DNA from: Amyelois transitella
Lineage: Eukaryota > Arthropoda > Insecta > Lepidoptera > Pyralidae
Assembly: GCF_032362555.1 (NCBI RefSeq)
Contig: NC_083512.1
Coordinates: forward strand, 8,296,001-8,360,000
DNA: 64,000 nucleotides
Direction: 5' to 3'
Shown here in pieces: positions 1-43,400 of the stretch. The notes under the pieces are model-generated. The model ran no database searches and was not told the DNA's origin. It saw only the letters and a program-made list of their open reading frames with translations. Made by a program: the position numbers and the translations under genes. Numbering within the stretch: position 1 is the first letter of the stretch; each line of letters starts with the position of its first letter.

Positions 1-103
1 CAGTTTATTTTCAATTTCCTTAAATATAACGATTGGTATTTCAGCTTCTTGCATTGATTCAATCAAATATGAGTACGAACAAAATGAGATTTTGTGACTG
101 GAC
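1..103 (-). CDS. possible partial exon at left edge, unknown protein
   Basis: Read on the minus strand, a good acceptor (TTACAG) lies at 104-109. Downstream of it one frame stays open for 34 codons to the window edge, and the other two frames close. The peptide looks protein-like (it includes SYLIESMQEAEIPIVIF) but I do not recognise it. It needs a preceding exon ending in phase 2, which the candidate exon at 1016-1196 does not supply by its best donor. It could be a chance open stretch. Confidence 0.25.
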
Positions 104-1015
104 CTGTAACTTACTAAACTTACATAATTTTATTTTGCAAACTACTTAATTTAAATTGCTGAACGACAACTGTTTCTTTACAGGTAAGCAATTTCAGAAG
201 TTATCTACAGCCAACAAATTTAAATAAGTTTTTGTCAGACACCTTTTTCCTGGCAAATGATCACATTATTACAAGGAATTACATAAGATGTGATGAGTAT
301 GCACAAACGTTTATAAGTTCCACAGGTTTGATAAATTAATATTTTGTAAAAAGGATAGGTTTTAAAAACCGTTTGACTAAGGTTCCGATACCCATAGGTG
401 GAGTAACTAAAAGGACGTAGGCAAGTTTTGCTATATTAAAAATCTGTTGCTCTACTTGTAGTTTAGTACTAACCTACTGTGTGTACAACAAAAAGCGTTT
501 ATCGATTTCCAAAGGCGCGAGGCGTGACTCGGGATGAATGGCGGTCGTTGTATGCTAGCAGATGGTTATAGCAGATATTTCTCTACAATTACCCGCCATA
601 TCACTAGCCAGCAACGGACAATAGCGGGCCACTGACCCGATCTAATCTCTCCCTTGATCTAAATGGTTTTTCGCAAAGATTATCTTCATTGGCTACATCA
701 CATTAAAGAGTTATGATAAAAATTATCTTGGGTGTAGTGGTGTAGAAGTAAATCTAGTCTAGTGTTTCATATTGTAAACAACATACTTATAGCTTCTAGT
801 CCGAAAATATGTATGTACTTACATGGATAGATCCGACTCTGATCCGATCCGACAGCTCTACGAGCGTATCTATAATCTTTATGTCTTAGGGAATTCAGTG
901 CCGACTGAGCATTGATATTTTCATGTATACCTAATAAGCACATGAATCCTCATTTTTCTGGAAGTAGGTACCTTAGTATTAACTTATTTTATTTATTGGA
1001 AAGAATAGACCGTAC
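104..1015. other. stretch without recognised gene
   Basis: AT-rich DNA between the two doubtful minus-strand exons. Both strands were read and no convincing exon, repeat copy or RNA gene was seen. If the flanking exons are real, this is intron. Confidence 0.4.
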
Positions 1016-1196
1016 CTTTTTGGTGTATCCGCTGACACTGCTGGCTAAGCTCTCGGCATCGTAATGTCGAGAAAAGGAATACGGGCCCGGATGGCTCCGG
1101 GACACGCATTGCCCCATATGCTTGTTCCACAGAACTCACTTCAGTCACATCTGTCTTTAATAAAGCAATGCACTTGGATGTTCCCACGATAATAAT
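1016..1196 (-). CDS. possible internal exon, unknown protein
   Basis: On the minus strand a 181-base stretch is bounded by an acceptor (CTGCAG, next to 1196) and a donor (AAAAAG then GTACGG, next to 1016). One frame is open throughout; the other two contain stops. The translation starts IIIVGTSKCIALL and ends ELSQQCQRIHQK. It ends in phase 1. Base composition is richer in GC than the surroundings, as in the clear exons of this window. I recognise no family, so this is a candidate only. Confidence 0.3.
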
Positions 1197-1635
1197 CTGC
1201 AGACGAACGTTTAGTTACATTCAGCATATGAATAAAGTGTCTTATTTATATTCTGAACGAATTTCGTAACTTGTAAATTTATGTTTGCGATAACGAATCG
1301 TTGTTGGTTGGTGATCGTGAAAAGAGAATTTGTGAGACAATTAAATACAAGTTAGGCTTATAAACTTGAGATTCTTTTTTTAGGCTAGTCACTATTTGGA
1401 TCTCAACTCTTATAATTAAGACAAACATCTGGCTTATTTGTCTTTTCAAAGCTGTTGGCTATATAAACGTGATTACATGTATATATGCAGTATGTTACTT
1501 ACAAATATTTAATTACAGTTTTGAATTGTTTCAGGGCTGCATGGGCAGGACTCGTGGAAATGTAGACTATCACATGCGATCATTTCCAACAAACTTTAAT
1601 ATAATATGCCTGGACTGTTTGGAATGCCTCTAAAA

Positions 1636-1802
1636 CATACATACATATAGTCACGTCTATATCCCTTGCGGGGCAGACAGAGCCAACAGTCCCGAAAAGA
1701 CTGATAGGCCACGTTCAGCTTTTTGGCTTGATGATAGCATTGAGACCCAAATATTGACAGGTTGCTAGCCTATCGCCTAAAAGAAGAATCCCAAGTTTAA
1801 AA
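1636..1802 (-). mobile_element. 5'-truncated SINE, (TATG)n-tailed family, with target duplication
   Basis: This copy belongs to the most abundant repeat family of the window. Its hallmarks, here in reverse, are the block around TATCCCTTGCGGGGCAGACA and a CATA-rich end. The insert is flanked by a direct repeat GCCTCTAAAA at 1626-1635 and 1803-1812, the target site duplication of a LINE-mobilised element. The family's sense strand runs from a GGTTCCCGGCACC head to a (TATG)n tail, so this copy is on the minus strand and lacks its head. Confidence 0.75.
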
Positions 1803-1812
1803 GCCTCTAAAA

Positions 1813-2194
1813 AAGCATCTTATTTAATACGATCATGATTTCTACGATTAGTTTACGATTTAGAAGATGGAACTGTATTAGTTCTGTCCTGAGCTGTTGA
1901 TACGTAAGCAATAATAATAAAAAATATGCTAAAAGAATTATTTGTTACAAGTTAAAGTGTTGTTCAAATTCACGTTCAAGTATTGTTTTCGATTTTTTAA
2001 AACCATCTTTCTTATTCAATTAAAATAAATCTTACAATGGGTCATCCAAGTTAAAAACTAATTCATTTATCGATCATGCAAATGAATCACATCAACTCCC
2101 ACACAAAAACACACTTCTCAATATATCAATTCACAGTCACATCACTTGTTGAATCCTAAACATCATGTGTCCATGCATTCGCGCGATGTTTTAC
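1813..2194. other. stretch without recognised gene
   Basis: AT-rich sequence with no exon or clear repeat recognised on either strand. Confidence 0.4.
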
Positions 2195-2290
2195 AAAGTT
2201 TTGAACAAACGGCGCGTCGCGCGCGCTGCGCACGAGTTTCGAGTCACCACTGCCTGCGCGCGCAGGTTGTTTGTGAACTCGGAGCCTATT
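2195..2290. promoter_or_regulatory. CpG-dense patch, possible promoter or 5' UTR
   Basis: An isolated GC- and CpG-rich island in AT-rich surroundings, with runs such as GGCGCGTCGCGCGCGCTGCG and CTGCGCGCGCAGG. Similar CpG-rich islands lie at the likely starts of the V-ATPase and SV2-like genes here. It may be the promoter of the doubtful minus-strand gene to its left. A short plus-strand open frame through it (2146-2403) has no protein-like features. Confidence 0.3.
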
Positions 2291-2771
2291 TTACAGCAAT
2301 GCTACGTATATCTCACAACCCTCATCCTCTAGTTATTTCAGTTAGGCTCGTCTTAAACATTGAGTCAGTGTTTTGTTGTTTTGGACTCGTCCTGGACGCT
2401 TAAATGGCTTTATTTTGCCGAATGACCAAGAGATTAATTAACTACCTAATGATAATCAAGTCATATAAAATATATGGAGGCTCATTCATGTATTTGTGTT
2501 GCGGCTGACGCCAGTATCATGGACAATTAATTTGCATGCCGATGATTAGGAACTGACAATAGGGAATGCGCTTATGTTAGTATCAATGCCACTGTTAAAC
2601 CTAGTACCAAATCAATTAAATTCATTAAAAAAACGTAGGAAGTTTGGTAGCTAAGTTATTATATTGAACCCTGGCTTGGCATCTAAATATATAACAAGGT
2701 ATCTACGTATCGATATTGTATTCCGGATCCAGCGTTCTTTTAAATTGCTAATAATCTTTTAAGAAGCCAGG
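2291..2771. other. stretch without recognised gene
   Basis: Nothing supportable was seen on either strand. Confidence 0.4.
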
Positions 2772-3160
2772 ATCAACTCAAACTCAAAAATATTTATTGC
2801 TTAACTGTGTAGACATATGGATGGAAATACATTTATATAGTAACAATAACAACATTTGGCCCGGCGGGCATGCAATATTCTGATAACCAAGTTTTTAATT
2901 TCTTTTTGATTAGAAGAGTAATATCTACTTATATATTCTTTTAATTTCTGCAGGTAAGTGGTTACAACAGTTCTTTTCTATTAGAAACAGAGTTAACAAC
3001 ATAGGTACCTATTGTTGGTTCACAACGAAGACAATAAATTTTCACAGTAACATTCCTAGAAAATACAATTTTCTGGACAATTTCCTAAAATCATATAAAA
3101 TTTCTCATTATATCTAAGCTTACTATACTTTATTCTATAATATAAACAAAACTCTTAACG
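2772..3160 (-). mobile_element. non-LTR retrotransposon 3' end fragment
   Basis: The stretch begins CAACTCAAACTCAAAAATAT and continues into 3'-UTR-like AT-rich sequence. Read in reverse, this is a LINE 3' end with a simple-sequence tail, the same design as the tail of the full element at 3921-8650. No coding sequence remains. The right boundary is approximate. Confidence 0.4.
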
Positions 3161-3920
3161 AAGAAGAAGATATCTTTAAAAACCTAGTTAACATACTTAG
3201 GTAAATAAAATGCCTAAGACTTGTAAGCCTGATGGTACTATTACCTTGATCACATAGGACTAAATCTATACTAGATAATATTATAAAGATGAAGAGTTTG
3301 TTTATTTGAACGCGCTAATCTCAGGAACTACTGGTTCGAATTGAAAAATTATTTTTGTGTTGAATAGACCATTTATCGAGGAAGGCTTTAGGCTATATAC
3401 CATCACGCTGCAACTATAAGGAGCGAAGAAATAATGGAAAATGTAAAAAAAACGGGGAAATTTATTCACCTTTGAGGGCTTCAATGATGTCCAAAATAAC
3501 TACTCCCGCGGACGGAGTCGCGGGCACAGCTTATATTATATATCTAGGTAACTATATCTAACAAAACTCAGATGTAGAGGTTAAGGGCAACTAAGTAGGA
3601 GTCTACTCGAACGACTAGGCTATCAATTATGGTGTTCATCCAATGCGTGAATATTTTGTAACGAAGAAAAGTAAAATAAATCCTTTGCGGTATAAATTTA
3701 GCCCTTGGACATAATTTCCGCTCGTGAAGTTAAAAACTGGTTTACCCAAGTTGAGATTAAAGCTCACTCGGTCAGAGGGATGTGGACCTATCGCCAGGGA
3801 GAAGAAGAATCACTGCCTTTTGAAACTTATTTATTTACCAATAATTACATACGTTAATTATAAATAATAAAGCAGCACCCCAGAGCCGAATTAGGTAAGA
3901 ACCACCTTTTTTTTAAGTTG
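3161..3920. other. stretch without gene; small repeat remnants
   Basis: Around 3505-3533 there is a GC-rich fragment (CCGCGGACGGAGTCGCGGGC) of a dispersed repeat common in Lepidoptera. Sequence near 3770-3815 weakly resembles the body of the (TATG)n-tailed SINE. No gene was seen. Confidence 0.35.
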
Positions 3921-4229
3921 GTTCAAATTCAAATTCAAAATTCAAATTCAAAATTTTTATTCATTATTATAGGATATTATTATATCGCTTAATAATTGTC
4001 GTATGGTTTAACAACTTGGTTGACGTCAAATAAATTACTTAAAAACTAAGTTTACTGCCGCTTCCAAGGCGTCAGTGCAGAAGAAGCGGTAACAAACTGC
4101 ACTGCAGCATTTTCATCAACAACGTCAACTTCACAATATTAAATTATACTTAGAATAGAATGTGGACGGGAGAATACATTGTTCACGGGAGATTTATATA
4201 TTTATGAGATTTAATATTGAAAAAAGAAA

Positions 4230-4256
4230 AATATATATATATATATATATATATTA
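4230..4256. repeat. (TA)n microsatellite
   Basis: About 12 uninterrupted TA units inside the retrotransposon 3' UTR. Confidence 0.9.
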
Positions 4257-4334
4257 TGGATTGCCAATTTTAAAAAGATTTATGTACAGAGTGTACTGAA
4301 ATTTTGATTTAAGTTCAAATTAAACTACAATTAA

Positions 4335-7226
4335 TTACGAGGTTCCTGTGCCAAGCTCGAGCCAGATGTTTTTATCATTAAGGTAATCATCAGTCCTATA
4401 ATAAGCCTTCCCACAAAGTACTTTCTTTACATACTCTTTGAATTTTCGGTTGGGCATATCAAGAACAGACTCCGGCAACCTATTATAAAATCGTATACAG
4501 TTCCCCATAAATGATTTACTGACTTTGCTAAGCCTATGAAACGGCATGACTAATTTATGTTTATTACGTAAATTTCTATCAGTTGTGGCACTAACTTTTT
4601 GAAAAAAAGAGGTATTTTTCCTAACATACATTATAAGATCAAAAATGTACTGGGACGCTACTGTAGGTATGTTTATTTTCTTAAAGAGTTGTCTTAACGA
4701 GTCTCTTGGTCCTAAGCCGTAAATTGCGCGAACGGCCCTTTTCTGAATTATAAAAATAGTTTGTATATCAGCCGCGCTACCCCATAAAAGTAAACCATAA
4801 GATAACAAGCTATGAAAATAGCTGAAATAAACAAGCCTAGCTGTAGCTACATCTGTCAATTGTCGGATCCTCCTAACAGCATAAGCGGCAGAGCTAAGTC
4901 TATTGGATAGTTTAGAAATATGAGCACCCCACTGTAGCTTTGCATCAATTATAATTCCTAAAAACTTTGTATTTTCAACAAATTCTAATTTCTGGCCTTC
5001 CAGTGTTATGTCAGTATTGGCCTGCCTTACGTTTGGAAGGGTAAATTTAATGCATTGGGTCTTATTAGCATTTAAAAGAAGATTGTTGGTTGAGAACCAG
5101 ATAGATATGGCCGACAGTATATTATTAACCGAACTTACATTTTCGCTATGGCGATCTAATTTAAATATTAAAGAAGTGTCATCGGCAAACAGCACTATAC
5201 CCGCCTGTTTTTCCACCATAAAAGGCAGGTCATTGACATATACCAAGAAGAGGAATGGTCCTAAAATTGAGCCCTGAGGAACACCCATTGAGACGCTTGA
5301 TCCGCTTGACTTTACTCCATTAATATCTACAGTTTGAAGCCTATCAGTCAAATAGGATGCCATTAGTTTAGTTGATTTGTGGTCAAACCCATATTGACGA
5401 AGTTTACGCAAAAGTGTCTGATGATCTACGCAATCAAATGCTTTAGAGAGATCGCAAAAGACTCCAACTGAATCCTGTGAACTCTCCCACGCGTCATAGA
5501 TTTGAGTAACAAGTGCTACTCCCGCATCAGTGGTGGACTTCCCGGCAGTGAACCCATATTGTTGGGAATGGAAAATGTTATTGATTTTAAAATATTGTTG
5601 CATTTGATTAAGCATCATCTTCTCAAACACCTTGCTCAAAACTGGCAATATAGAAATAGGTCTATAATTGCCAAGGACTGTTTTCTCCCCTTTTTTGAAT
5701 AGAGGTATTAATTTGCTACATTTCATTAAATTTGGAAAAATACCCTCATCAATACATTCATTAAATATAAAAGCTAGATCAGATGCAATAATATCTATGA
5801 TTTGACTTATGATACTAACAGACATACCCCAATGGTCTTCAGACTTTTTCAAATTAAGTTGTTTGAACGCCTTTAATATATTATCAGAGTTAACATATTT
5901 AAATTTAAAGACAGATTTGATGGGAGTTGTGTTATTATTAAGTAGGGTTTCAGCGCGCAATGGACAAGAGTCAACGTCAGAAGTTAGCTCCACAGGGATT
6001 TTTGCAAAGAAATTATCAAAAGCATTTACTATGTCCTGAGTTTTAGAAATACTTTTGTTACCGGATGATATTTGTTTAATACTGTCTCTATCTTTGATTT
6101 TGCCAGATTCTTTATTAATAATGTTCCATGTTTCTTTAATTTTATTTGGTGCGTTGTTTATTTTACTACTTATGTGCAAAGACTTGGCTTGCCTGCAAAC
6201 TTTTTTAAATAATTTTGAATAATTTTTGACATATTCTACAAAACTGGGGTCAAAATTGTATTGTTTCTGGGCATATAAGTCATATAACTTATTCCTACTC
6301 TTGTGAATACCTACTGTAGCCCATTCACTGAACTGTAATCTATTACGAATATTGACTTGTTTCTGCTTGAACCTTTTTGAGTATTCAGCAGAAATCATAT
6401 CAAATAAATTGTTATAATGTTCATTAGGATTATTTCCAGAATATGTTAAAGTATTTAATTGATTTGCAATGTTTATTTTAAATTTTCTTATGTTTTTGGA
6501 AGAAAGAGGTCTACACATAATTTTATCATTATTTAAATTGTTTAAGGACTCTTTCTCAAAGGTAACATATTGACCGGTGTGATCCGAGGGCAATTTGTGA
6601 ATAATTGATTTCCGTATATAAAGATTATTGCAAAAAAAATTATCCAGACACTTGGCAGATGTAGATGTTATTCGGGTTGGTTCGAAAAAAACATACTCTA
6701 AATTATAAGATTTAAACAAATTAATAAATTGTATACTAACGGTTGATTTAACTAAAATGTCAATGTTAAAATCACCACAAATAATTAATTTTTTATTACA
6801 TTTTGAGGTAACATGTAACACTTGATCCATTATTTTTAAAAATTGTTTAAATTCACAGTTTGGGGGACTGTACACACAAACAATTATATGATGATCTAGC
6901 TCGGCACAGGTCACTTCGGCACACCGCTCAACCGAAAGTCTGGTTATGTCTGTTCGCTCTTTACAGCGAAGACCGCATTTGATAAATATCATAGACCCAC
7001 CTCTAATTGCAGACTTTCTGTTTAAGCAGCTCACAATATTATAATTGTTTAGGCTGAACATCATCTCCCCCTCCATGAGCCAATGCTCAGTCAAACATAA
7101 AATGTCCACATTTAATTCTTCTAAAACTAGTTGTACTTCTAATTCTTTGCCGGGAAGACCTTGTATATTTTGATGGATAATTCTTAACCCTCGAGGGTTT
7201 CCCGTTGTCTGAGTGTGCAGTTTAAA
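4335..7226 (-). CDS. LINE ORF2: endonuclease and reverse transcriptase
   Basis: The frame is open from 7226 down to the stop at 4335, about 960 codons. The first ATG-type start seems absent: the codon at 7109 is GTG, and conserved endonuclease sequence (LRIIHQNIQGL) already lies upstream of it. An apurinic/apyrimidinic-type endonuclease comes first, with DILCLTEHW, CGDFNIDI and SDH. A reverse transcriptase follows with NYRPISILPVLSKVFEK, DLSKAFDCVDHQTLL, GVPQGSILGPFLF and the catalytic FADD box (usual form YADD or FADD). A thumb and C-terminal region follow with FLGIIIDAKLQWG. The frame overlaps the 3' end of ORF1 by about 40 bases, so expression probably needs frameshifting or reinitiation. 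Family: CR1/jockey superfamily; the clade is uncertain. Confidence 0.9.
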   Translation of the reverse strand, partial: FKLHTQTTGNPRGLRIIHQNIQGLPGKELEVQLVLEELNVDILCLTEHWLMEGEMMFSLNNYNIVSCLNRKSAIRGGSMIFIKCGLRCKERTDITRLSVERCAEVTCAELDHHIIVCVYSPPNCEFKQFLKIMDQVLHVTSKCNKKLIICGDFNIDILVKSTVSIQFINLFKSYNLEYVFFEPTRITSTSAKCLDNFFCNNLYIRKSIIHKLPSDHTGQYVTFEKESLNNLNNDKIMCRPLSSKNIRKFKINIANQLNTLTYSGNNPNEHYNNLFDMISAEYSKRFKQKQVNIRNRLQFSEWATVGIHKSRNKLYDLYAQKQYNFDPSFVEYVKNYSKLFKKVCRQAKSLHISSKINNAPNKIKETWNIINKESGKIKDRDSIKQISSGNKSISKTQDIVNAFDNFFAKIPVELTSDVDSCPLRAETLLNNNTTPIKSVFKFKYVNSDNILKAFKQLNLKKSEDHWGMSVSIISQIIDIIASDLAFIFNECIDEGIFPNLMKCSKLIPLFKKGEKTVLGNYRPISILPVLSKVFEKMMLNQMQQYFKINNIFHSQQYGFTAGKSTTDAGVALVTQIYDAWESSQDSVGVFCDLSKAFDCVDHQTLLRKLRQYGFDHKSTKLMASYLTDRLQTVDINGVKSSGSSVSMGVPQGSILGPFLFLVYVNDLPFMVEKQAGIVLFADDTSLIFKLDRHSENVSSVNNILSAISIWFSTNNLLLNANKTQCIKFTLPNVRQANTDITLEGQKLEFVENTKFLGIIIDAKLQWGAHISKLSNRLSSAAYAVRRIRQLTDVATARLVYFSYFHSLLSYGLLLWGSAADIQTIFIIQKRAVRAIYGLGPRDSLRQLFKKINIPTVASQYIFDLIMYVRKNTSFFQKVSATTDRNLRNKHKLVMPFHRLSKVSKSFMGNCIRFYNRLPESVLDMPNRKFKEYVKKVLCGKAYYRTDDYLNDKNIWLELGTGTS

Positions 7227-8617
7227 TTAACTGTCAAGTCAACAGAGTTACCATCACACAGAGTTGGCAATTCTGTAGTCAACTTATAATTAATATTTCG
7301 CTTACAATGTAAACTCGTCCAAACATTAATATTACTAGCTACCAATGTAGCAATTTTGTTCTTATGGTATCTGGATAGAAATATTCTATCATTGGTCTTA
7401 AAACAATCACCTATGAAATTGTTTGTGTCAAAAAACACAAATTTGTCACTGTGACGACATGTCAACGAATGCATAAAATTATTGAGTAGGTGAATGTTTT
7501 TATTAAGTTTTGGAGACTGGCAACTCATATATGGAAAAGCACATAAAATTATTTGGTTAACTTTTAATTTATTCAAAGATTCAAAACAGTTAATTATATC
7601 TTTCCTGCCAATTTTAAAACTATCACCAATTAATATTACTATGGTGGATTTATTATTTAAATTTACATTATTAATTCTCTTAATAATTTGGGTAAAAGAT
7701 GCATTTGACATGCAGTAATTTATAAAAGACTGATTTAGGGTATCACAAAAATATTTACCCATATTGCTACCAATACCGTCTGAAAATAGCACTGTATTAT
7801 AATTATAATGAGGTTTACAGGGTTCAGAGTTGGAATAAGTATCAAGCAAATTACCGGCACTGGGAGTGGGTGAAAGCAAGGTAGAATCATTGATATCGGG
7901 CTTGTTGAATTGCCCGCAGGTACATTCTTTTGATAAGAATTCAAGAGTCTCCTGGTTAAATGTACTGTCATGAATCAACTTTTCTACAGCCAACAGATGC
8001 TCAGTATTTTGCTGTCTTTGTTTATCATATTTATTAAACAGTTTAGAATAGTCATCCTGTAATTTTATGACATGAGTCTCCAATCTGATCCTATCAACCT
8101 CATATGCCTCTTGATTTTCTACCATTTTTTGATTGCAAGAGCTGATTTCCTTTTGTAACCTACAGTTCAATGAACTGCTTTTTATTAAGCATGATTTCCT
8201 AATGTTATTATTTTTTAATTGATATTTACATTTCCTAATTTTTTTAGAGAGTTTTAGGTATTTTTTTAATTTATTATGGCTCATATCAAGTTTTGGTTTG
8301 TTTTTATACATATTATCATAAGAAGTGTCACTAGTGAGATCAATAATTGAGGAATCAACTGAGGGTGACATAAGTCTACTTTCAATGAGCTCATCAAAGA
8401 GGCTGGACACCTCCTTTGACTGATGCGACTGGGCATCTTGCTCGTGTCTATTTATCAGCTCATATGCCTCACTCAGCTCCCTTTCTAATTCAGTAACACG
8501 TCTGAGTGTCTGCTCATACGTATCACTGCATTGGCGGAAAGAATCTACCACTAAATTAAGTCGGTTAAGCTGCCCGGTTAAGTCATCAAAAGTTGGTTGA
8601 AAATCTAGTTTTTCCAA
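7184..8617 (-). CDS. LINE ORF1: coiled coil plus SGNH/esterase-like domain
   Basis: A 477-codon frame starting at the ATG at 8617. Residues about 10-70 and 155-215 look like coiled coils (ELERELSEAYELINRHEQ; LETHVIKLQDDYSKLFNKYD), separated by a very basic stretch about 115-155 rich in K. The C-terminal half (about 270-450) has the strand-loop pattern of an SGNH hydrolase, with LFSDGIGS, IVILIGDS and late FLSRYHKNKIA. Esterase-type ORF1 proteins are known in CR1-like LINEs. The catalytic residues are not certain, so the domain call is inference. ORF1 probably binds the element RNA. It ends in TAA at 7184-7186. Confidence 0.7.
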   Translation of the reverse strand: MEKLDFQPTFDDLTGQLNRLNLVVDSFRQCSDTYEQTLRRVTELERELSEAYELINRHEQDAQSHQSKEVSSLFDELIESRLMSPSVDSSIIDLTSDTSYDNMYKNKPKLDMSHNKLKKYLKLSKKIRKCKYQLKNNNIRKSCLIKSSSLNCRLQKEISSCNQKMVENQEAYEVDRIRLETHVIKLQDDYSKLFNKYDKQRQQNTEHLLAVEKLIHDSTFNQETLEFLSKECTCGQFNKPDINDSTLLSPTPSAGNLLDTYSNSEPCKPHYNYNTVLFSDGIGSNMGKYFCDTLNQSFINYCMSNASFTQIIKRINNVNLNNKSTIVILIGDSFKIGRKDIINCFESLNKLKVNQIILCAFPYMSCQSPKLNKNIHLLNNFMHSLTCRHSDKFVFFDTNNFIGDCFKTNDRIFLSRYHKNKIATLVASNINVWTSLHCKRNINYKLTTELPTLCDGNSVDLTVNLNCTLRQRETLEG

Positions 8618-8650
8618 GCAATTACTTAGTCATTACCTAATGTCAACGTC

Positions 8651-8814
8651 ACGTCAGCCATGTTGTCAAAGTCATTATAATACAAATAAATTGGTAAACA
8701 AAACTTTATCTTGTTTTGTTTTTCATACTTAGGTAATAAATAAAAGAAGTAAGTCGCAATAACTTTAGTTCTAAGATTTTCTCAAAGAAAAGAAATATCT
8801 CTTACATTTTTCTC
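8651..8814 (+). promoter_or_regulatory. probable promoter and 5' UTR of the NATD1-TTC21B pair
   Basis: About 165 bases between the LINE 5' end and the NATD1-like start codon. Because no other intergenic space exists upstream of TTC21B, this is the likely promoter for both genes, unless TTC21B has one inside the NATD1 gene. No TATA box was recognised. Function is inferred from position alone. Confidence 0.4.
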
Positions 8815-9490
8815 ATGAGTGGAATGATAACACGTGCAAGCTTGAGAGCTTTTTCTACAGAAGCTCTGAAAGTATTGAATAATGTTGCCAAGCAACAGTT
8901 TGAAGTTGCTGTACGAGGTGGCAAGTGTAATAAGTGTATTTTTACATTAAAAAATTAATTGTGTTTAGGTATTTGAAGATAGTTTAGTCCCTGGAAGTCC
9001 TCGGCACTTAATGTAACCTGTGTTCACAAGTTTCAGTCCAGGAGAATGGGGGCCTTTGATAATGACTATAGACTACATACAATCGTCATTTTCTTTCAAC
9101 TTAAGAGCCAGGTTACATTACCATCAATTGTAAAATATTAAATATTAAAGTCTGTTTTAGCTGAAGCTGTGATTGGATATGAGAAAAGCGGTAAGCAAAT
9201 AACATTCGTCCACACGAATGTTCCTGAACAGTTTCAGGGCAAAGGGGTTGGTAAATTACTAGCTAAGGTATATTTTTATTCCTTTCTATTTTAAATAACT
9301 CATGATTATACAATTAATTGTGCTAATATTTCTCTTTTATTTTCAGTATGCATTTGACTACGCTCTTGCAAACAAGCTTGTTGTTGTTTGTAAGTGTCAC
9401 TTCTTAGCAAAATATTACGAAAATAATAGGAAGCAGTTTAAAAACCTGTCAGTCAAATTTGAACTAGAAGAGGAAGATCAAAAGAAATAA
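8815..9490 (+). CDS. NATD1-like GNAT N-acetyltransferase domain protein
   Basis: Three exons: 8815-8926, 9161-9267 and 9347-9490, joining in phase to a 120-aa protein; human NATD1 is of similar size. Junctions are AAGT|GTAATA, TTTTAG|CTGAAG, CTAAG|GTATAT and TTTCAG|TATGCA. The single domain is the small YjdJ-type GNAT fold. Its acetyl-CoA pyrophosphate-binding loop is visible as QGKGVG at residues 63-68, followed by the helix KLLAKYAFDYA. The N-terminus (MSGMITRASLRAFST) is basic and hydroxylated and could be a mitochondrial presequence. The substrate of this family is not established. Its last coding exon runs directly into the TTC21B reading frame, 2 bases after its TAA. Confidence 0.88.
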
Positions 9491-9492
9491 AG

Positions 9493-12400
9493 ATGGACAT
9501 AATTTGGTATAGGTGTAATGTACATTATTATTTACGTGAAAAATGTTTTGGAAAAGCCAGAAAAATAGTTAAAGAAGCATTACAATTAAAATCTGATACA
9601 ACAGAGTTCCTCTTTTACAATGGAGTTGCTAGTATTTTGGAAGGCCAAGTCCAGGATGGGATCAATGACCTCAATCCTTTGCAGTCTGACAGAGATCTGC
9701 AGTTAGCAGTAGTAATGGCTTTGATATATGGCCACAAGCTGGCTAATGTATTAGAGAAAGATGTCTTATACACCTTAGAATCAAAACTGAAAGAAGAAAA
9801 GAAACATGGGAACACCATGTCTTATTATTATGCAGGATTATTTTTGTCACTTGCAGAGAGGTATGAAAAAGCCTCTGAGTATATAACCAAGTCACTAAAA
9901 AAGGATTCCAATAATTTAGCTACAATGATTTTAAAAGGATGGAATGATATGTACATGACAGTTGGTGACATGCAAGCATCTACATTAGATTATTTAGAAC
10001 TTGCACTAACCAGGAGTGATAGAAATGTAGAAGCCTTACTTGGCCTTGCAAAATTCAAGTATTTTGCAAAAGATTTTGAAGCTTCAAATCTTACATTAGA
10101 CAGGCTGATAGTAAACAGCCCAGGACAAGTTGTGCCTTTAATTGAAAAACTTAAAAATGAATTTGCTTTGCAAAAATGGGAAGCTGTTTATGATACAATG
10201 GATCGAATATTACCCTTAGAACCTGATAATGTGGAAGTATACAAAATAAAGATATATCTGGCACTCTGTAAGAACGCAGACTACATTGAAGCTGCTGATC
10301 AACTGAACAGGTTTTTCGGTGTCCTAGAAATTGAAGAAGCAAATAATGGCTATCAGTTTTATAACACAACACAGATATTTTCCAAAATCTGTGGCAGATC
10401 AAGTGCTGTATTGTCACAAGTTTATAGATTCGCCCAATATGCATCAGAAATGTACCCTAATAATGTGGATTATTTGAGTGAAGTTGGCTATCAATGTATT
10501 CTTCAGGGGAAATATAAGGATGCTGTAAACTTTTTCAAAGCTGCAAGCAAAATAGACAGTAATTCTATAACAGCTCTTTGTGGCCTGACCCTTTGTCAAA
10601 TGTTTGAACATGGCCCCACAGAACAGATCACCCAACAAGTTGAGTTATTGTTTGAAATGCAAGGCATGACCAAATTACCAGTTTTGTATCTTCTATCAGC
10701 TCAGCTTAATGTTAAGAACTCTGTAAAAGCTTCATCCTTTCTGACCACTGCATATGAGACCAAATTTCTATATGCTAACCAAATCCCTTTTAGTTTAACA
10801 TATATCAAAGAATTAGATCCTGATTTCCTTCTAGATGTGTACAAAGAATATAGAAAGCATTTGCCCAAGAAGCCTTTTGTTATAGTAGACTATTTACTGT
10901 ACTCTCTAGATGGAAATGTCCCAGCTGTGTCTCATTGCTTCAAGTTACTTGAAAAAATCTGTGAGGCGTGTCCAAGTTTGATAGCAGCGTTGTATGAGTT
11001 GGCAAAGCTGAAGTTTTTATTTGGTTATTCGATGAAGGCTCTCAAATTAGCGACACAGGTAGGCGAACTAGACAGCACGCATGCTGGAAGCCAAATACTA
11101 TTGACTCAGATCTATATCCAGCAACAAGCCTACAATAATGCTGCACAGTGCTTAGAAATGTGTTTAAGTTACAACTTTAAAGTAAGGGACAGTGCAATGT
11201 ACCATTTTCTCAATGGAGTTATTCAGAAGAGTTCCAATCAATATCAGGAAGCACTGGCAAGTTTTACCACCGCCTTACAGATAGCTAATAGCAAGACCCA
11301 AGCGAATAATATGAGCCGTCTTTATGACTCAGATTTGAATATCATTGATAAAGCCACATTGTATCTGCAAATTATTAATATGCAAACATCTTTAGGGCAG
11401 TTGTCAGAAGCAGGGAAAACTATGCAGGTAAAAACCTTTCTTCCTCATGAAGCTATTTGAAAATAGAGTGTAAATTTCATCAAAGCTTTCATATTTTCTT
11501 AAATGCAATAGAAGACACTGATCGACTGACATATCAGCGCACAGACCAAACCTCTAGTATTTAAATATTTCAAATTTGGCATTCACGTTCCTAATGTGGT
11601 AAAACAGTAACATAATAGAGAATTTCCCGAAAATACTGCGAGAATGGATATTAACGGAGTTTTTTTTCTATACAGAGGAATGTATGGAATTTAATATATT
11701 GTTTCATATTATACTAATCAACATTAATTTTATACAAAAATTTGATGTTTTGCAGGAAGCAATTCAAGAGTTATCTTACACATCAGAAGAAGGCAGGTTA
11801 CTCATAGCAAGGGCAGACATGGCCATAGACAAAGGAGATGTGGATAATGCCATAGACATCTTGAATGAAATCAAACCTGGCCAACCATACTATTTCCAGG
11901 CTCATAGTAAAATGGCCCATATTTACTTGAAAGAGAAAAATGATCGAGCCATGTTCACCTCTTGTTTTAAAGACATAGTGAATAACCATCCTATGGCTGA
12001 TGCTCATGTTATGATGGGAGACGCCTTTATGTCTATTCATGGTAAGTTTTTTAGGCTACAAAAGATTCTCATAATTCAATGTTTAAAATCAATTCATGCT
12101 CATATCTCAAACTTAATCACTGTAATGATACCAAGCTAAAATTTTTTGTTAAAGGTAATAAGTACTTTTTACTTCGAATAATATGATATTGAAAATGACG
12201 AACTAAATTCCCTCTCATGCAATGTTCTTGTGGTTCCCTTATGCGCTGGGGTCGGCTTTTGTGCTTTACCTTAGCATAAGTTTAGGATAAGTTATAATGT
12301 CAAGTATGTTTTATATGGTATTCTATCTATTTATTTTTGTAAAAATCACACAAGCGATACTAATTGTTTTTGATTTTAAACAATTTAAAGAGAGAAACAC

Positions 12401-15400
12401 AGATTATTAGTCCTTTAGTATAAGTATAGACTAATAATGAAATGTTGTTTTAAGAACCTATCCAAGCTGCTGAGTCGTACGAGATAGCTCTTAGGGGGAA
12501 CCCCAAAGACATCCATCTGATTAAGAAGCTAGGCACAGCTCTCGTTAAGATGCACCAGTTCGATAAAGCCACCCAACACTATGAAGACGCTATCAAGTTG
12601 CTGAACGATGACGAACTCAAGTTTGATTATTTAGAACTACTTATCAAGGTATGTTTCAGGATAAATTTGACTTAAATTGGTTTAAGATTTTTAAATTCAT
12701 TAATCATCTAGGCAAACCCTAAACTTTGTTTAGAGATGCCTTCGAAAACACCCAAGCAAATAATGTTATTAATAAACAACCTTCAGTAGATATGTGCAAT
12801 TTAAAGTTTTGACTAAGATTTTGCATATTAAACAATAAAAACGCGAGAGCAACTTTTTTTATATAAGATTACATTGCATAAATCTAAAGATCATACCAGT
12901 TAAAATTATCGTTGCTATGTCAATTAGTGCACTTTTACTTTACAACATCGGCTTCATGTTCAAAGTTCCAGACAACTGAATGTAGTAAGGAAATCTCGTC
13001 TACATTTGTTGCATGGTACACAGATGAAAAAATAGACTTCTATGTTAGGTAATCATCAACAGCTGGTTTAAATATTTAGCCCTTTTCAGCTAAAGCAATA
13101 TGACAAAGTGGACTCAATAATTACATCAGACATAAACCAACTGTACAACAGAGATAAGGACGTAGCCACACTGAAGCGCCGCGTTCGCTACCTCACCACC
13201 CAAGCCAAATGTCGCCAACTCGCAAATCCAAATGCTGGCAACACTCATCTAATCCTCGCCGAAGCGAAAGAGTTACAAAATCACGTTGTAAAAAGAATAG
13301 AAATAGATTCGAGAGGAGATCTTCAAGAGGAGAGACGTATTCTGTCGGAAATACTTTGTTCGTTGGCGAAAGTGAAGTCGACTAAGGAACCAGCAGTCGC
13401 GGCGAATTTGTACTCCGAAGCGTTGATTAATTTGCCAAGGGAACCTAATACGCTGTTAGCCTTGGCCAAGTTATTTGCTGATGTAAGTTGTTTTTTTTTT
13501 TATTTTGTAGGGGTTAATAGCTGTTTCTTTATCTTCAAATTTAATTTAGGTCCATTGTAAAATCCTTAACAATGGATATTTTTTTTAACAAATGAACAAA
13601 ATTTTTAAAATTCTTTCCATTAATGAAAACAGTAAATTTGACGTTTCCTGTAAGATTCCTAAACCAAACTCAGTACAAAATTTTTTCATAATATTACGAA
13701 TGTTTGCAATGTTGTCCCTTAATTTGTGTGGTGTTAGCTTTCTTGTTCAAAACCTTTGTCTTGAAACTTTTGTTGACAGTTTCTCATTGGTTCATTCTGT
13801 ACTTAGATTTATACGAAGAGAAAATTCATGATGATGTTTCAGATGAACCACCCAGAGAAATGCGAGCAGACCTGTTCTGTGTTGCTGAGCACCGACCCCA
13901 ACAACGAGGCGGCCGCTGTCATGATGGCGGACCTTGCGTTCCGGAAGGTGGGCATAAAAAATATTTTCATGTTTACCAACATTGACAAGACCATATGTTT
14001 TATATTAGCTCTCTTTCTATTTCTGAAATCAAGCAAATAGACAGAGAAGATGAGACATATTATTATGCCTTGTCGACGTTCTTGAATAATCTTGCTTCTC
14101 ATTACTGACCGAGGCCGTAGTTAAACCTGAGTCTTCTCATTGGAAGATGCAAACTGAACACTAACGCCAGTGTTGTAATTTCTTGGGTAATAACAGAGAG
14201 AGGACTCTAAGAGTTACGGTCGATGGCGAAGCCAGACTGCGCGAATCCTTTGTGGGACAGAGAACACATAGTGACTAAGTAATTTCAGTCAGTTACTCAC
14301 CAAAAATTATTCAAGAATGGAACTAGTGCAAAGCGCAGCTTACTGCAGGGAAAAGTTGTAGGTACTTAACGCATAGCGCGGCAGATCCCCGTTGAGATGG
14401 ACAGAACAAATAAAGGCGCAACGAACTCTCCTGGTGACAAGTGCGCTATAAAGGCTGCGACCCGGCAAGAATAGCGTCGTATTACAGAACTCTTCAATCA
14501 ACCTGTCTATGATTGAAAATAATGTGAGTGAAACGTCTTAAGAAGAAGTAATCTTTACAGGTGGACTTCGAAACAGCCCAGCGTCACCTGAATCAGATCC
14601 TATCAGTGAAGCCGCTGAGTTGGGAGGCGCTCGCGCAGCTGATCGAAGTGCAGTGGCGGCGCGGCAAACTGGCCGAGGCCGAACCAGCTTTAGATGCAGC
14701 CAAGCTTGCGCTGGAAGACGCTGATGACCCAGGTAATTTGGTGTTTGATAGCTCAACCATCATCCTCGCCGCAAAATATCCATTGCAGGACTCAGGCGTC
14801 CCTTAAAAATTACCACCTTAATTGTAAGAAGCAGGCTGCATCTAGTGTCCAGCCGCAACCTTAATTAGGACGTCAGCCAATAGTGGATGGTTTCCCAACA
14901 TTACGCTTATGTGGCCTACCTTAAAGGAAAAGAGTTATGAATGTGAATTCTCGATAAAAGGATTCTTACACAGATTTGTCTCATTTTGCATACCTAATAA
15001 AATTTTAAATTTTCCAATCTTCTTCCTCCCAGGGTACTTCTATTGCTCGGGCGTGTACTCCTGTTACCTAGGTCGCGCCAACGCGGCATTGAGACAGCTG
15101 AATGTAGCGCGTCGTGGCGCCGCGTGGAGTCAGCGCGCCGCCACTAGGATGGTGTTGTTGTGTTTGGCTCACCAAGCACCAGATGCTCCACACGCCTTGG
15201 CTGACACCTTCGCCGCTTCTGGAGACGACTCGTGAGTTTATAAATGGTCTAACTTTCATACAATATGTCAATGGTGCTAAATTCAGGGTTTGTGCTGAAG
15301 AAGAAGAGTCTTTGCGACACTCGATTTACTTAGCCTTGATTCGATGGCAAGCTAGCGATGAGTGATCGGCATTCCCGGAGCTGGAAGAAAAATGGAGGAA

Positions 15401-17379
15401 TAAAAATGGTTTGACATAGGACATACCTACTTCCGAGGAAAGATCGCATGAAAACATCAAATGTCGCTACATCAACTGAATTCATTCGTTACTTATCTGC
15501 GTGACTTGAAGTCAAACATGGTATACGTAAACATAGTCCCCATTTTTTTGTAACAGTACACTTTTACATTATAATAATTCATCTACAGGGATACAAGAAC
15601 GCTTGCGCTGCGTACAGCGGAGAAACTACTAGTGGAAGTGGCGCCAAGTGAGCGTAAATCGCTTCAAGCGCTTCTTCAGCTCGCGACGAAACAGAAACAG
15701 CAAGCGGAGAAAGTGCTGCAGGATTTGTTGCCTCTTGTCACGGACGACGTGTACCAGGACGACCCATACTTGATACTGGCTATTGCGAACGCGTGAGTAT
15801 AATATAATTTTATGGTGGATTTTAAACTTGGAGTATTTTTAATCGTGTGGCTTTACAACTGCCATATCGCAATGACAGCCGGGACCAACAGCAACAGCAC
15901 GGAGTAGTTCGAAATAATTCGTGTGTGTGCAATGTGCAACTTGGAACGTTTTATTATATCATTTTTTTTTGCCTAAGCAGAGGTTACGGATTTGATATCA
16001 TCATTCTCCTGTGGTTTTGTTCAAGTTGCACTCTTTTTTTAAGAAGATTCTCGGTTCCGTCTAAAACCACGATACCTTACCTGGACCATGGTGACTCTTC
16101 TAGGTGCCTGAATGTAATGCCTGGTATTCTCACGATGCCACATGGTTAAAGTATCATAAGTTAAAAAGTCGAGGTTTTTCAAAATCAAGTTAGGTATGTG
16201 TTGTATTTCCAAACGTTTACTTTTGTTTCAGTTACAATATAATAAAACAACCTACAAGAGCCAAGAACATACTGAAAAGAACCATATCTGCGATCGCTTG
16301 GACACCAGAGAAAGCGGATGGTTTAGAGAGGTATAAACATTATTTCGGAAGAGCATGCAAAATTGCCAAACTATGTTTTAGTGAGATAAGCGGATCTCTA
16401 GTTTTGAAGCTATTTACTTTTAAATGAAATTAAAAACACACAAACGTTATCCTCTTAGCGTTAAGCCCGGTTACATCCTGGACAGGGGACGGCCTTTTCA
16501 CCATAATTTTTCCTGGATTGGGTAAATCAGGTTTTCACACGAAGCAACTTCGGTCAGACCTCCGCAACCTTTTCAGGAAAACCTAACCTATATTGGATCA
16601 GGGTAAAAGCTACACTACATTAGTGTACATATTACCTTTTACTACATCCACGGAAAGAGATAGATCCGGGAATCAAACGGCACGTAATGACCTTTCAGAC
16701 ACGTTTTAAACATTCTTAGGCAGTTACCACTGTGGATTTTTCATTACTGGCCAATCACAATAAAGTCCAACAATTATTACCCTTTATGTTTTAGATGTTG
16801 GTTGGAAGTAGCCGACAACCAAGTGAGCTCCGGAAGATCGGAGGCTGCGAAGGAGTTGCTCACGAAAATTCTGAATCACAATAATTCGTGTGCCACCGCC
16901 TACCAATATTTAGGTAATTTAATTATAATATTTTTAGTTATAATAGATGTAAATTGAGTGAACTGAGAGTTGATGGAAATAGTGATATTTTCAACTTAAT
17001 TGCCTATTCTTGGTTCCAAAGACTTGCGACTAAAAGCTGCTGTCTGCTTGGCATCGTCTTGAAAAATTGTGCTTATAACCAAATTTGATAATATGATTTG
17101 GTTCATTTCTAATAGCATAAGTTTCTATTAAATTTTGCAGGCTTCTTAGCTGAGAAAGAGCAGAACTACAAAAGCGCTGCCCACAATTACGACAACGCTT
17201 GGACACACGGTGGAAAAAGCGATCTAGCTGTGGGCTATAAACTAGCACACGCTTACCTAAAGCTGAAGAAATACCCAGAATGTATAGTGGTCTGCCGACA
17301 TATACTGAAGGCTCATCCAGATTACCCAAAAATAAAGAAGGAAATACTTGATAAGGCTAAGAGTAATTTGAGAACGTAA
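9493..17379 (+). CDS. TTC21B: tetratricopeptide repeat protein 21B (IFT139), IFT-A complex subunit
   Basis: Eleven exons: 9493-11427, 11756-12041, 12455-12648, 13090-13482, 13843-13947, 14561-14732, 15033-15231, 15589-15792, 16232-16330, 16795-16913 and 17141-17379. All junctions keep phase and give 1314 aa; human TTC21B is 1316 aa. The protein is a solenoid of TPR-like helix pairs from end to end. Recognisable family blocks include CLSYNFKVRD, EAAAVMMADLAFRK and the C-terminal VGYKLAHAYLKLKKYPECI. IFT139 is a peripheral IFT-A subunit that drives retrograde transport in cilia. In insects that means ciliated sensory neurons and possibly sperm. The start ATG is the first in frame after a stop at 9460. 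Exon 1 alone encodes 645 residues without an intron. Polyadenylation candidates AATAAA lie at 17501, 17606 and 17884. Confidence 0.95.
16485..16620 (+). repeat. dispersed repeat ('CTAACC..TATTGGATCA' family) in TTC21B intron
   Basis: Contains CCTGGATTGGGTAAATCAGG, CACACGAAGCAACT and CCTAACCTATATTGGATCA. These match in order the copy at 53140-53345 and, partly, those at 27461-27516 and 56230-56345. It lies in the TTC21B intron between 16330 and 16795. Edges are approximate. Confidence 0.5.
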
Positions 17380-20900: not shown

Positions 20901-23900
20901 CACACTTTAAATTTAAACTTGTAGGTAATGATGATGAGAAATTCTATGCTTTATAGGATTAAATGTACATTTCGTATAATCATCGTAATTGCATACTTCG
21001 TTGCTCACGCTATGTACCTACTCTTTCGCTTCGTAAATAAATATTTACTTTAATAGTTTTAAAAATCCCTACGACTTAAAATAACAAATTTACCTGCCAA
21101 ATAGGGTCAACACCAATGAAGTAAGGCTCGCCCAAATATGCATCTTTAGGGTCTAGCGTCAGAGCGGTGTTATGTTCCAATGTCTCGTTGTCATACGGGA
21201 CTGTCCAGGAAGACCCAAATATGTTCATAGATTTCGAGAATATATCGTTATACATGATTCCGGTGTACATAGAGAAACAGCCCATAAGAAGAATGATGTA
21301 GCGTCCGGCGAAGAAAATATTCCAGATTTCGTTGTTAGATTTTTTGGCAGCAAGGGAGACTTCTTTGCAGACCATCCAAGCGCCGAATAGGGCCATGATG
21401 GCGCCGTGACCCAAGTCTCCGAACATCACCGCGAACAGGAATGGGAAAGTGATGATGGTGTACAGGGCTGTAAAAAAGCAATCATTTTGAATATTTAAAG
21501 CGGGAAACCCTGGCGTCCTTCTTGGTTTATAATATTTCCTGGGCATGGACTTGTTTACTTGCGTACTACGCATAAAAAAGATTGGATTATTAGCGGTTCT
21601 GCCAACCAATATTAAAATAAATTTTAATATACTGATAAAGAAGTATGGAAATACTCCCTTATCATGGGCTATGATCCATATTGTTCCAGTTGCTTTGCCG
21701 GCCGGACGGAAAGTGGACCCTTTGTCCCAAACCCGGAGTCCACTTTCCGATATTTTTCGCCACTTTCTGATCATCATATCATCAGGGCAGGGATCACCCT
21801 TTTCACTTTGTCAAATAAACTACTAACATAACTACTTAAACTTCTAATATAAACTTTCTTCTCTTCACTGATATTTTTATGTTAAATATAGATTTATAGT
21901 ACAGATGTCGTATAGAAATGTGGCCTCCTGTAGTTAAAAAACTACGTACCAGGGTTAGCCTCCCGGTAGGAGGCGACTCCGTACGCGTCGATGAGGTTCT
22001 GGAAGCCGCGCGTGAACCGGTTGGTGCGGTTGAAGGTCGGCGGCTCCTCGTCCGTGGCGATGCAGTTCAGGAACGAGGGGATTGAACTGCCGCATGCGTT
22101 CTGTGAAGAATACAATTATTAAGGTTCCCATCCATCCATCTTGCAGGTTAGACAGAGACAGCAGTCTTTCAAGACCAAATGATAAGAATGAGATTCAAAT
22201 AGTGTGAGGCGGGCTACAACCTCACACTATTTGAATCTCATTTTTATCATCGCCTATAAGATGATTCCGAAGTTTATGAACCTATCCCTGAGTCGCCTTT
22301 TACGACCTCCAAGGGAAAGAGATGGAGTGGTCCTACTTTTTATATTGGTGCCGGGAACTAAAAAAGCCGGCAAAATTATTTAGGTCTATTCCATACATCA
22401 TCGCCGTGTGATCGAATCCATAAATACAACGATAGTTTTTAGGGTTCCGTTGTAGGTTTTAAAGATTCTGACAGAGTAGCAGATAATTTCTTTGCATTAT
22501 TTGAATAAATAATATTAATTGTAAGAAACTCACCGATCCATCAGCCAACGCCTTCTGCACGTTAGGCAGATCAGCGGTAGGAACCCAACATTCCCCGATC
22601 AGACATTTTTTAGTGACGTCCATATTGAACAGGTTAAGAGTGTGGTATATGGCCTTCATCTTGCGCACCATGATAGACCAGCTGGCCAGTTCCTTGGCAA
22701 CGCTGGCCAGGACTCGCTGTCTGTGGTCCCGGGTTTGGTTCAACACCTGTGGTTAATTTATTTTATTATCGTTGGCAGGTAGGTAAATGAAATCTGCACA
22801 TTTCGGAAATGGATGGAAATTAGGGCTCCTTTTTGGTTATTTTGTTATTTATTTAAAACTTTATTAAGCAATATATATCATAATAAAATGGGTGAACCGA
22901 ATGGCAATAGCATTTTTGCTTCTGTGTTAAAACATACTAAAATCGTCTCATTCGTTTCGGTATTCGTAGCTTTCTTTATCCCAAACTGAATGACATCTAG
23001 GTTATATGTATATAGTGTCAAATGTGGCCCAACCCAATTTTAAGGATGATACCACTGGAATAAACCACCAGAATGAATGATCTTAGCTTCATTAGATTTT
23101 CGAGTATTCGGCTATTAGAAGGTACCTTGTGCTCGTAAGTGACATCAGTATGTTATTGATCAATTTTAAAACTATAGTTATATAATATCAGCGCGTCATA
23201 GTTGACCTCCTAAGAGGACTATCACGGCCCTTTATAGCCGAGTATACGCAGTACTCACCATATTAAGGTCTTCGAGCCTAGTGCGCACTCCTTTGACCAT
23301 GTCCTGTCGCTCGGCGTTGGAAGGCGGGCACGGGTATAGGGAGGCGTGGAATCCAGTGCACACTTTCTTGATACGGGATTTTAGTTGTTCGCCTTGGAAG
23401 AACGCTACGAATACGGTCTTGTAGATCTCGTTACCCTGAGAGAAAAGGAAGAAAATAATTAAAAATAATTGTCTAACACATCATTAACCAGAGGCATAAA
23501 AACGTAACCAAAGTTAGTCGAACTTATACTTATAACTTACATTGATAGGATCCTCTAAAGGCTTATCCAGTTCAGCGCGTCGCAGAAACACGTTCCCGCG
23601 GGAAATGCGCCAGAGCATCCGCTCGAAGGCCGGCACTCGTTCCCGCTGGACCACGCCGGCTACGAAGCCTAGTCTACCCCGGTTAGCGGCTTGCTGGCCA
23701 GTCTCGTCTGATATCAGCGATCTGGCAAAATAAAAACCAGCAAATAAAAAATAGGTAACAGAAAAAGAAATAATGGAAACCAGGCCTTGGCCAGACGCCC
23801 TTAATAATGGAAACTTTACTCATATCGGATTATTCACAAAGTCATCTTATTAAAATCACACGGCACTCGTTTTCATGTAAGTCGTTCTCTTTTTCAGTAA

Positions 23901-40431: not shown

Positions 40432-43400
40432 TTACTTACTTGTACTACTTAAAAGACTAGGAACTCTCATAGACCACAGTAATGGGTGGCTGCATTTTAT
40501 TTTAACAACTTCCGATCCGTCAAATGTATTTGATGTACTAACTAGGTCCCCGAATCTTAACGGTTGATTATCTGAGAACGAAATAAAAGCATGTAATTTA
40601 TCATCATCCTCCCGGCGTTAGTCTTAGTTACGTCCTCACACCTCTTGAAGAGGAGAAAGAGAGTTGAGAGTTTTACTATGTAATGTATAAAAATATTTTT
40701 TTTATACAACATCTCAAAGTCGGGAAAGTATCATGAATAGCTTCTATGCTGTAACAAAAAATAATTGTTAATAAATAAGACCAGCAACTTACCTAAATTC
40801 CATTTTAGCCCACTGGAGGTGACACTTTGACATGCTTCTCCGACTGGCACTAAAGAACACCAAGCTCTTTTATGCTGCCTTACATTCTCGGGAATGCTTA
40901 TTATATGATTCCCAGGACATAGAAGCCAAGATATAGAGTCGTCTGACATAATATATACTTTAATTTCTGGGCTTAGGATATTTTTCTCTCTCACTAGGAA
41001 TAACGCTTGTATGTTACCTAGTATGTGATCTATTCTTCCTGAAGTTTGAGCGATGACGATAACATGACTTATCTGTAATAAGAAGAAAACTAAGTTGCAG
41101 GTGACAGACTTATGTGTAATTAGAAGAAAACAGAGTTGTAGGATTCCACAAACCATGTCTTACTCCACCCACTAACTAACAGCTGAATGGGCCTATCAGT
41201 CTTGCCAAAACTGTTGTCTCTGTCTTCCCCGCAAGGGATATAGGCGTGATTATAATGAATGTATGTAACTTACATCTGTGCTTTGTGTTTGAAAACCATA
41301 ACAAAACCTGAGGCATGAAAACAAACCGTAATGCAGATGAATAATGCATTGAGTAAGTACAGACACTTGGCTGGATAAAGACATATGACATTCTTATAAA
41401 TAGTCATTCATCAAAAATTATTATACAATTAACTCGGACCCATATCGGACAAATAGCATTTAGTAAGGTCTTGTAATTTACAACTACCCCTTAGACATAC
41501 TTCTAATTATGGAATTCTGGATGCTAACAAGGTTGAATTGATTTAAAACTTATTTAATGTCAGTGCCTAATTTGAACATACCAAAACTTACCTCTAAATT
41601 TTCTTGTGCAATATGTGAATTTAATTCCATCAGAGCCTTTGTAAAATCTGTGTAGTTTTGATCTGGAGTGTATACTATCTGTAACAAGAACAAATTTATG
41701 ATATTTTTTACCAGTTGCAGTCAACCTAGGTAGTATCTAAAAATAATATATAATTTAATAAAGACAAATATAAGGTTACTTATTTGTTTATAACTTTTTC
41801 ATTTATTTTTTTGTTTTTTATTGGTCAACATTTCCATTGGAATTGAGAACACAATAAAAGTTTGTAGTTTGGCTTTTAAATTTTATTATCTATAGTCGAG
41901 TGGAAGTAATACCAATAAAAGAAAGTAATGTATGTAAAATAATTGAAACTTTAAAAAAATACAATAATATCCGCCAAGTGGAATAAAGATAGTTTGAACT
42001 TGGATAAGAATGACACCCTTAATGTCATTTGAATAAAGGTGCCAGCGTCAGTTATTTTTTATCTATAATCCTGACTTTGGTTGACATGCTTAATGATAAG
42101 AATGACCATCATGCTATAAAGTTTATTTCCAAACAAATGATAATAAGTAGGTATTATTATAACTCATAAGTAGGTATTATTATAACTCAGATACAAATAA
42201 AATATTTAAACATTTATTTATAATAGACATTGGAACTTTGCAACTGATGTTTTCTTATTTGATTTGGGAAGGTAGGTAGGTAATGATATAAGACCACTAA
42301 GGCCATCGCATTAGGCACAAGTAGTCCAAGGTGTGCTAATGCTCTCAAGAGTAACTTCAAAGATAAAGTGTTTACAATGGACACTTATATCTGACAAATT
42401 TTAACAATGAGCAAAGAAGTTGTTATACCAAGCTGTCACTTAGGTCTTGGGTCTACTCCCTAAAGCTGAAAAATTATACATATATTTTTTAGTTAAATGA
42501 CTTTATACCTAAATTTAAAATGTTTCACCTTACAACCTTTCTTTGTAAAATGCTCCTTGATATCAGGTAATATTGAGTCAAAGTCTCCAGTGACCAGGTC
42601 AGGAATCTTCATAGACTTTTGTAAATCTGACGGCATATTGCTGAGATATTTGTACCATTGTGTTGTTCCACCATCCACTGTTATTCTTACTATGGCTTAA
42701 ATTATAAAAATAAAAATTAGTATTTAATTTGCCATCAAAAACAAAAGATAGTTTATCAAAAGGTTTTGAGAAAACATTAAGATATAAACTAAAAAGCTGC
42801 AATTAGAATCTGACGGCCTCTGTGGCGCAGCAATAGTAAGCTTGTCTGTGACAGCGGAGGTCCCGGGTTCAAATCCAGGCCAGGGCATGAAGAGAAAAGA
42901 ACTTTTTCTGATTGGGCTGGGGTTTGGATGTTTATCTATATAAGTACATACATACATACATACATATGGTCACGTCTATATCCCTTGCGGGGTAGACAGA
43001 GCCAACAGTCTCAAATAGACTGAATGGCCACATTCAGCTATTTGGCTTAAAGAAAGAATTGAGATTCAAATAGTGACAGGTTGCAAGCCCATCGCCTAAA
43101 AAAGAATCCCAAGTTTATAAACCTAACCCTTAGTCGCCTTTTACGACATCCATGGGAAAGAGATGGAGTGTTCCTATTCTTTTTTGTACTGGTGCCGGGA
43201 ACCACACACATCTATATAAGTATGAATTATAAAATTTCGTATCACTGAATTAGTATCTCATAACACAAGTCTCAAACTTACTTCAAGGCTAACTCAATCT
43301 GCGTAATTTGTCCTGTATATATATGTTTATTTATTTAGAATGGATTGGAAAAATGCTGGAACTTAAATAACAGAGAAGTGTAAAGAAATTGTAGATTAAT

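Follow-up and report, generated by a model that had tools for sequence, protein, structure and literature searches.

The plus strand of the 64-kb window (the whole stretch of DNA that was analyzed) carries a NATD1-like gene, for which a splice search gave three coding exons: exon 1 (8815–8926), opened by an ATG in the context TTTCTC ATG A, exon 2 (9161–9267) and the coding part of exon 3 (9347–9490), closed by the TAA codon at 9488–9490. The resulting frame is 363 nt long with its stop and encodes 120 residues. Intron 1 is bounded by AGT/GTAATA, a donor that looks weak, and TTTTAG/CTG, intron 2 by AAG/GTATAT and TTTTCAG/TAT. Twenty-eight GT/AG combinations keep the frame open and all of them use the intron 2 acceptor at 9347; the combination retained here is the one that leaves the GNAT core whole, so that the intron 1 junction is a matter of judgement. 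Searched over its whole length, the protein matched the Pfam profile PF14542 (Acetyltransf_CG, E 6.5e-19) at residues 28–102, covering 76 of 80 profile positions and ending before the stop codon. The translation also contains the sequence QGKGVG, which we take to be the acetyl-CoA loop motif of the GNAT family, and its solved relatives are 1r57, At1g77540 (2evn, 1xmt) and YjdJ (5i0c). By profile match, the product is assigned to the GNAT proteins of the Acetyltransf_CG family and is called NATD1-like here.

The next frame on the same strand is that of TTC21B/IFT139. Its first coding exon (9493–11427, 645 codons) starts at an ATG in the context ATAAAG ATG G and ends at the donor CAG/GTAAAA at 11427. 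Pfam recognized PF25062 from residue 10 (E 5e-62) as well as PF25060 and PF25058, and residue 7 of the frame aligned with residue 7 of the solved TTC21B chain 8fgw_D (E 4.1e-93); because of this last correspondence, the alignment identifies ATG 9493 as the homologous TTC21B start. The remaining exons, whose exact junctions are not all settled, lie at 11756–17379 on the plus strand and lead to the C-terminal domain and the stop. Ten open blocks follow downstream. Nine of them matched a TT21 family (PF25058, PF25068, PF25064 and PF25063) and together they reach 17379, where the C-terminal domain ends; the blocks from 13807, 15578 and 16194 did so with scores under the Pfam cut-off, and the block at 15108–15362 matched no Pfam family. 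Apart from these three sub-cut-off blocks and the unmatched one, the TT21 ARM domains follow one another in order from the N to the C terminus, and the TTC21B gene looks intact.

The two frames are separated by 2 nt: the NATD1-like stop (TAA, 9488–9490) is followed by AG (9491–9492) and then by the TTC21B ATG (9493–9495). Both lie on a single plus-strand exon (9347–11427), which holds the end of the first frame and the start of the second, and no intron or splice site is seen between them. The original prediction had described exactly this, namely two frames 2 bases apart on an exon that carries the first 645 TTC21B codons, and its coordinates proved exact. Since both frames share this exon, TTC21B must be switched on within or through the NATD1-like gene; the alternative drawn earlier between a shared mRNA and a TTC21B promoter inside the NATD1-like gene does follow from the sequence.

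Could the junction be an error of annotation or assembly, in which a wrong base creates the stop, or could a fused protein be made by -1 frameshifting? A stretch of 28 nt (9463–9490) is open in both frames, the TTC21B frame being open upstream as far as 9463. This amounts to just ten codons between ATG 9493 and the nearest upstream stop, and the homologous start at that ATG, together with this short extension, makes a fused or misassembled gene unlikely. The PF25062 match beginning at residue 10 and the PF14542 match ending ahead of the NATD1 stop also speak against a fusion, and we know of no TTC21B with a fused acetyltransferase. An assembly error breaking the frame at 9480–9500, which had been named as grounds for refutation, is likewise unlikely because homologous sequence runs unbroken in both frames up to the junction. 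An artefact or fusion of this kind is therefore extremely improbable.

We then considered how AUG 9493 might be translated. In a spliced leader running from 8700 to 9492 (480 nt), it is preceded by six AUGs, four of which have a purine at -3; two further ATGs, at 8640 and 8660, count if the mRNA starts further upstream. The NATD1 AUG stands in a weak context (C at -3, A at +4). The second AUG (8824) is NATD1 codon 4, and apart from residues 1 and 4 the protein contains no methionine. A study by Wall et al. 2005 reportedly dealt with the absence of in-frame AUGs in the first cistron. The four others lie out of frame; their ORFs comprise 18, 7, 14 and 19 codons and end at 9172, 9202, 9262 and 9407 respectively, and none of the upstream AUGs opens a frame that extends beyond 9490. 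AUG 9493 is alone among the seven leader AUGs in combining a purine at -3 with G at +4. Because the NATD1 AUG is weak, the TTC21B AUG strong and the short uORFs all closed before 9493, this layout would allow leaky scanning, combined with reinitiation downstream of the short uORFs.

These features speak for an obligate dicistron, in which a single capped transcript made from the NATD1 promoter would serve both proteins and TTC21B would be reached by leaky scanning and by reinitiation after the short out-of-frame ORFs. The dicistrons tested in green algae are marked by a first start that is weak and by a small number of AUGs ahead of the second start (PMC11892635), and the locus resembles these leaky-scanning dicistrons in its weak first start, strong second start and short gap. 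It differs from them in that the algal dicistrons have no AUGs before ORF 2, whereas six remain here. This number of AUGs within 480 nt, most of them with a purine at -3, weighs against an obligate dicistron, as does the count of out-of-frame AUGs in NATD1, which is not significantly depleted (4, versus 5.35 on average when NATD1 is recoded synonymously; a fraction of 0.24 of the recodings have 4 or fewer). Taken together, these data make the obligate dicistron a serious alternative, to which we give somewhat less weight than to the reading preferred below.

Reinitiation at AUG 9493 by ribosomes that have just finished NATD1, a route that had also been proposed, is the least likely one. With a gap of two bases, a post-termination ribosome would already sit on the new AUG. 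However, reinitiation after short uORFs requires a minimum spacer, and following long ORFs it presumably happens very rarely and with special cis or trans factors (PMC5972666); the 2-nt gap leaves almost no spacer. The RNA fold around the junction was no better than that of shuffled sequences (z 0.45; 135 of 200 shuffles at least as stable) and no Rfam family matched the window. On these two results, a reinitiation driven by RNA structure was rejected, and termination-reinitiation as a whole appears very unlikely.

Dicistronic loci are well documented in Drosophila, with 159 pairs in FlyBase release 6.04 (PMC4528330). Forty-five of the 159 are known from dicistronic mRNAs alone, while single-gene mRNAs exist for one member in 69 and for both members in 45 (PMC4528330). 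The original prediction, according to which eukaryotic pairs this tight are usually true dicistronic units, goes too far in view of these figures. In the fly loci with only polycistronic mRNAs, the spacing ranges from -34 to 319 nt (PMC4528330), a range that includes the 2 nt found here and so fits an obligate dicistron. The 3' gene usually obtains its own mRNA from a downstream promoter, as we propose for TTC21B, and the 5' gene its own from an upstream poly(A) site (PMC4528330). The locus shares with the fly loci two unrelated frames, a small first protein and a spacing of a few bases (PMC4528330); unlike them, it lies in a different insect and is known from its DNA sequence alone, so that the fit is one of layout, and NATD1-TTC21B is not named among the dicistronic pairs in the available text of PMC4528330. 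By this layout, we would tentatively place NATD1-TTC21B among the insect gene pairs of dicistronic type, as a closely spaced pair that is transcriptionally nested.

An RFX X-box-like palindrome, GTTGCC-A-AGCAAC, lies within the codons of NATD1 exon 1 (8884–8896, plus strand), 596 nt of genomic sequence before the TTC21B ATG. It is the sole zero-mismatch match to GTTGCC N [AG]G[CT]AAC in the 64-kb window, where the form GTTGCCAAGCAAC occurs once versus a mean of 0.02 in shuffles. It also fits RTNRCC N1-3 RGYAAC, the strictest X-box consensus used for flies and for RFX targets (PMC2375033). A strict X-box was found within 1 kb before the TTC21B ATG in 1.1% of 20,000 shuffles, within 3 kb in 3.0% of 6,000 shuffles and in 2.5% of 20,000 synonymous recodings of NATD1, percentages that flatter the X-box because it was noticed by eye and tested afterwards. 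Over the whole window, the strict consensus occurs twice, a count reached in 39 of 200 shuffles; the second match, GTTACCTAAGTAAC, lies on the minus strand at 49072–49085. Looser forms of the consensus were not enriched in the window (50 versus 57.9 and 6 versus 8.6 expected), nor were boxes with up to 2 mismatches (8 versus 9.3 expected).

Comparison with RFX-regulated fly genes gave close counterparts. The box of CG1126, a gene down-regulated in the dRfx mutant, is GTTGCC T AGCAAC and differs from the present one by the spacer base only, and CG4525 carries a box of the same type (GTTGCC A AGCGAC), the target here being also an IFT-type gene (PMC2375033). Unlike in the listed fly genes, the box is embedded in the coding sequence of the adjacent gene, and its distance of 596 nt contrasts with the 60–321 nt from the ATG at which most strong palindromic fly boxes are found, with exceptions at 2,731 and -22 (PMC2375033). 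The authors of the fly study also state that a single X-box ahead of an ATG has no predictive value unless it is conserved (PMC2375033). The box at 8884–8896 is a plausible cilia-specific control site for TTC21B. In an obligate dicistron, it would regulate the shared promoter or be due to chance.

The hexamer AATAAA (9486–9491, plus strand), which might serve as the poly(A) signal of an mRNA carrying NATD1 alone, overlaps the NATD1 stop and is followed by GU-rich sequence 10–40 nt downstream. The 30 nt starting 10 nt past the hexamer contain 7 GT/TG steps, a number reached by 4.1% of the 244 AATAAA that were scored. Because the hexamer is common in the AT-rich window (n = 245), we regard it as a weak hint that it could end a short NATD1-only mRNA. 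With respect to core promoters, no TATA box and no initiator-plus-DPE pair were detected at 8640–9493; four initiator-like hexamers or pentamers are present in this interval (9033, 9086, 9343 and 9449), none with a DPE. Together with the X-box, the AATAAA at 9486–9491 leaves room for mRNAs that would be at least partly separate.

The same signals might be coincidences in AT-rich DNA, the two genes being simply packed together by chance with separate ordinary promoters, that of TTC21B being weak and located in intron 2 or exon 3. The abundance of AATAAA and the unexceptional number of strict X-boxes in the whole window agree with this explanation. It would nevertheless confine a whole promoter to about 0.5 kb of transcribed NATD1 sequence, in which no core promoter pair was seen, and we consider it improbable.

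The reading that we favour, with a probability of roughly 0.45, is that TTC21B has an RFX-dependent start inside NATD1. In ciliated cells, RFX bound at 8884–8896 would drive a TTC21B mRNA whose 5' end would fall within NATD1 exon 1 or shortly before it. The remaining NATD1 exons would serve as its 5' leader, which would be 283 nt long after splicing if the start were just past the X-box. Ribosomes would bypass or translate the short out-of-frame uORFs, the last of which ends at 9407, and would then initiate at the strong-context AUG 9493. The NATD1 mRNA would be made from an upstream promoter and would either end at the AATAAA over the stop or continue as a long dicistronic mRNA. The low chance frequency of a strict X-box in the 1 kb before the TTC21B ATG, the resemblance of the box to that of CG1126, the strong AUG 9493, the fly precedent and the AATAAA with its GU-rich sequence all argue for an internal RFX-dependent start; the post hoc testing of the box, the lack of enrichment of its looser forms, the unexceptional count of two strict matches in the window, the caution of the fly authors about single boxes, the 596-nt distance and the missing core promoter pair weigh against it. 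A further, rather unlikely extension is that an X-box set in acetyltransferase codons has locked both genes together, so that ciliated cells would produce a TTC21B mRNA with a leader of NATD1 exons and other cells would use the same exons for an enzyme mRNA ending at the stop-codon poly(A) signal. The earlier suggestion that the arrangement couples an acetyltransferase to a ciliary transport protein found no support at the locus.

The observation itself is real and the arrangement is of a known kind, with many examples in flies; what is new here is the X-box in NATD1 exon 1 and the AATAAA across the NATD1 stop. If an mRNA or a promoter is common to NATD1 and TTC21B, the knockout or editing of one gene in an insect would alter the other, and automatic annotation would tend to fuse the pair or to drop one member. 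If the X-box is conserved in the coding sequence, it would offer a testable case of a ciliary promoter held by the codons of a neighbour, and if the arrangement is true and maintained throughout the insect order, a single piece of DNA would be under selection as protein, promoter and leader together. Otherwise, NATD1-TTC21B would be another member of a class of which flies have many. Among the open-licence PMC papers searched, we found no publication on the NATD1-TTC21B pair and none on TTC21B in Lepidoptera, NATD1 in insects or dicistronic RFX/ciliogenesis loci in Drosophila; the available text of PMC10556659 makes no mention of IFT139 or Ttc21. As expected for insect genes, the search for relatives gave 11 pattern matches in viral contigs and 7 in prokaryote genomes, none of which was confirmed.

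The surroundings of the pair were also inspected. A non-LTR retroelement lies on the minus strand (4335–8629), and its 5' end borders on the sequence upstream of NATD1, some 190 nt from the NATD1 ATG. Its 4335–7226 part encodes an endonuclease (PF03372, E 4.3e-10) and a reverse transcriptase (PF00078, E 1.8e-35), its 7184–8629 part is a 481-residue open frame that matched no Pfam family, and a search for target-site duplications found none above 10 nt. On the minus strand at 8623–8660, the sequence ATG GCT GAC GTG ACG TTG ACA TTA G is followed by GTAATG; it could be a very small coding exon that opens a divergent gene, or else a piece of the retroelement leader. Visual inspection of the short open frames in 1–4330 revealed no partner gene. 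In NATD1 intron 1, a perfect 12-nt inverted repeat (TAATGTAACCTG at 9009–9020 and CAGGTTACATTA at 9109–9120, 88 nt apart) is perhaps a small MITE; its 11-nt core has no other exact copy in the window. Further along the window, exons of the V-type ATPase 116 kDa subunit (21076–21810), of thiamin pyrophosphokinase (40731–41159) and of a sugar-type transporter (52082–52447) are all found on the minus strand.
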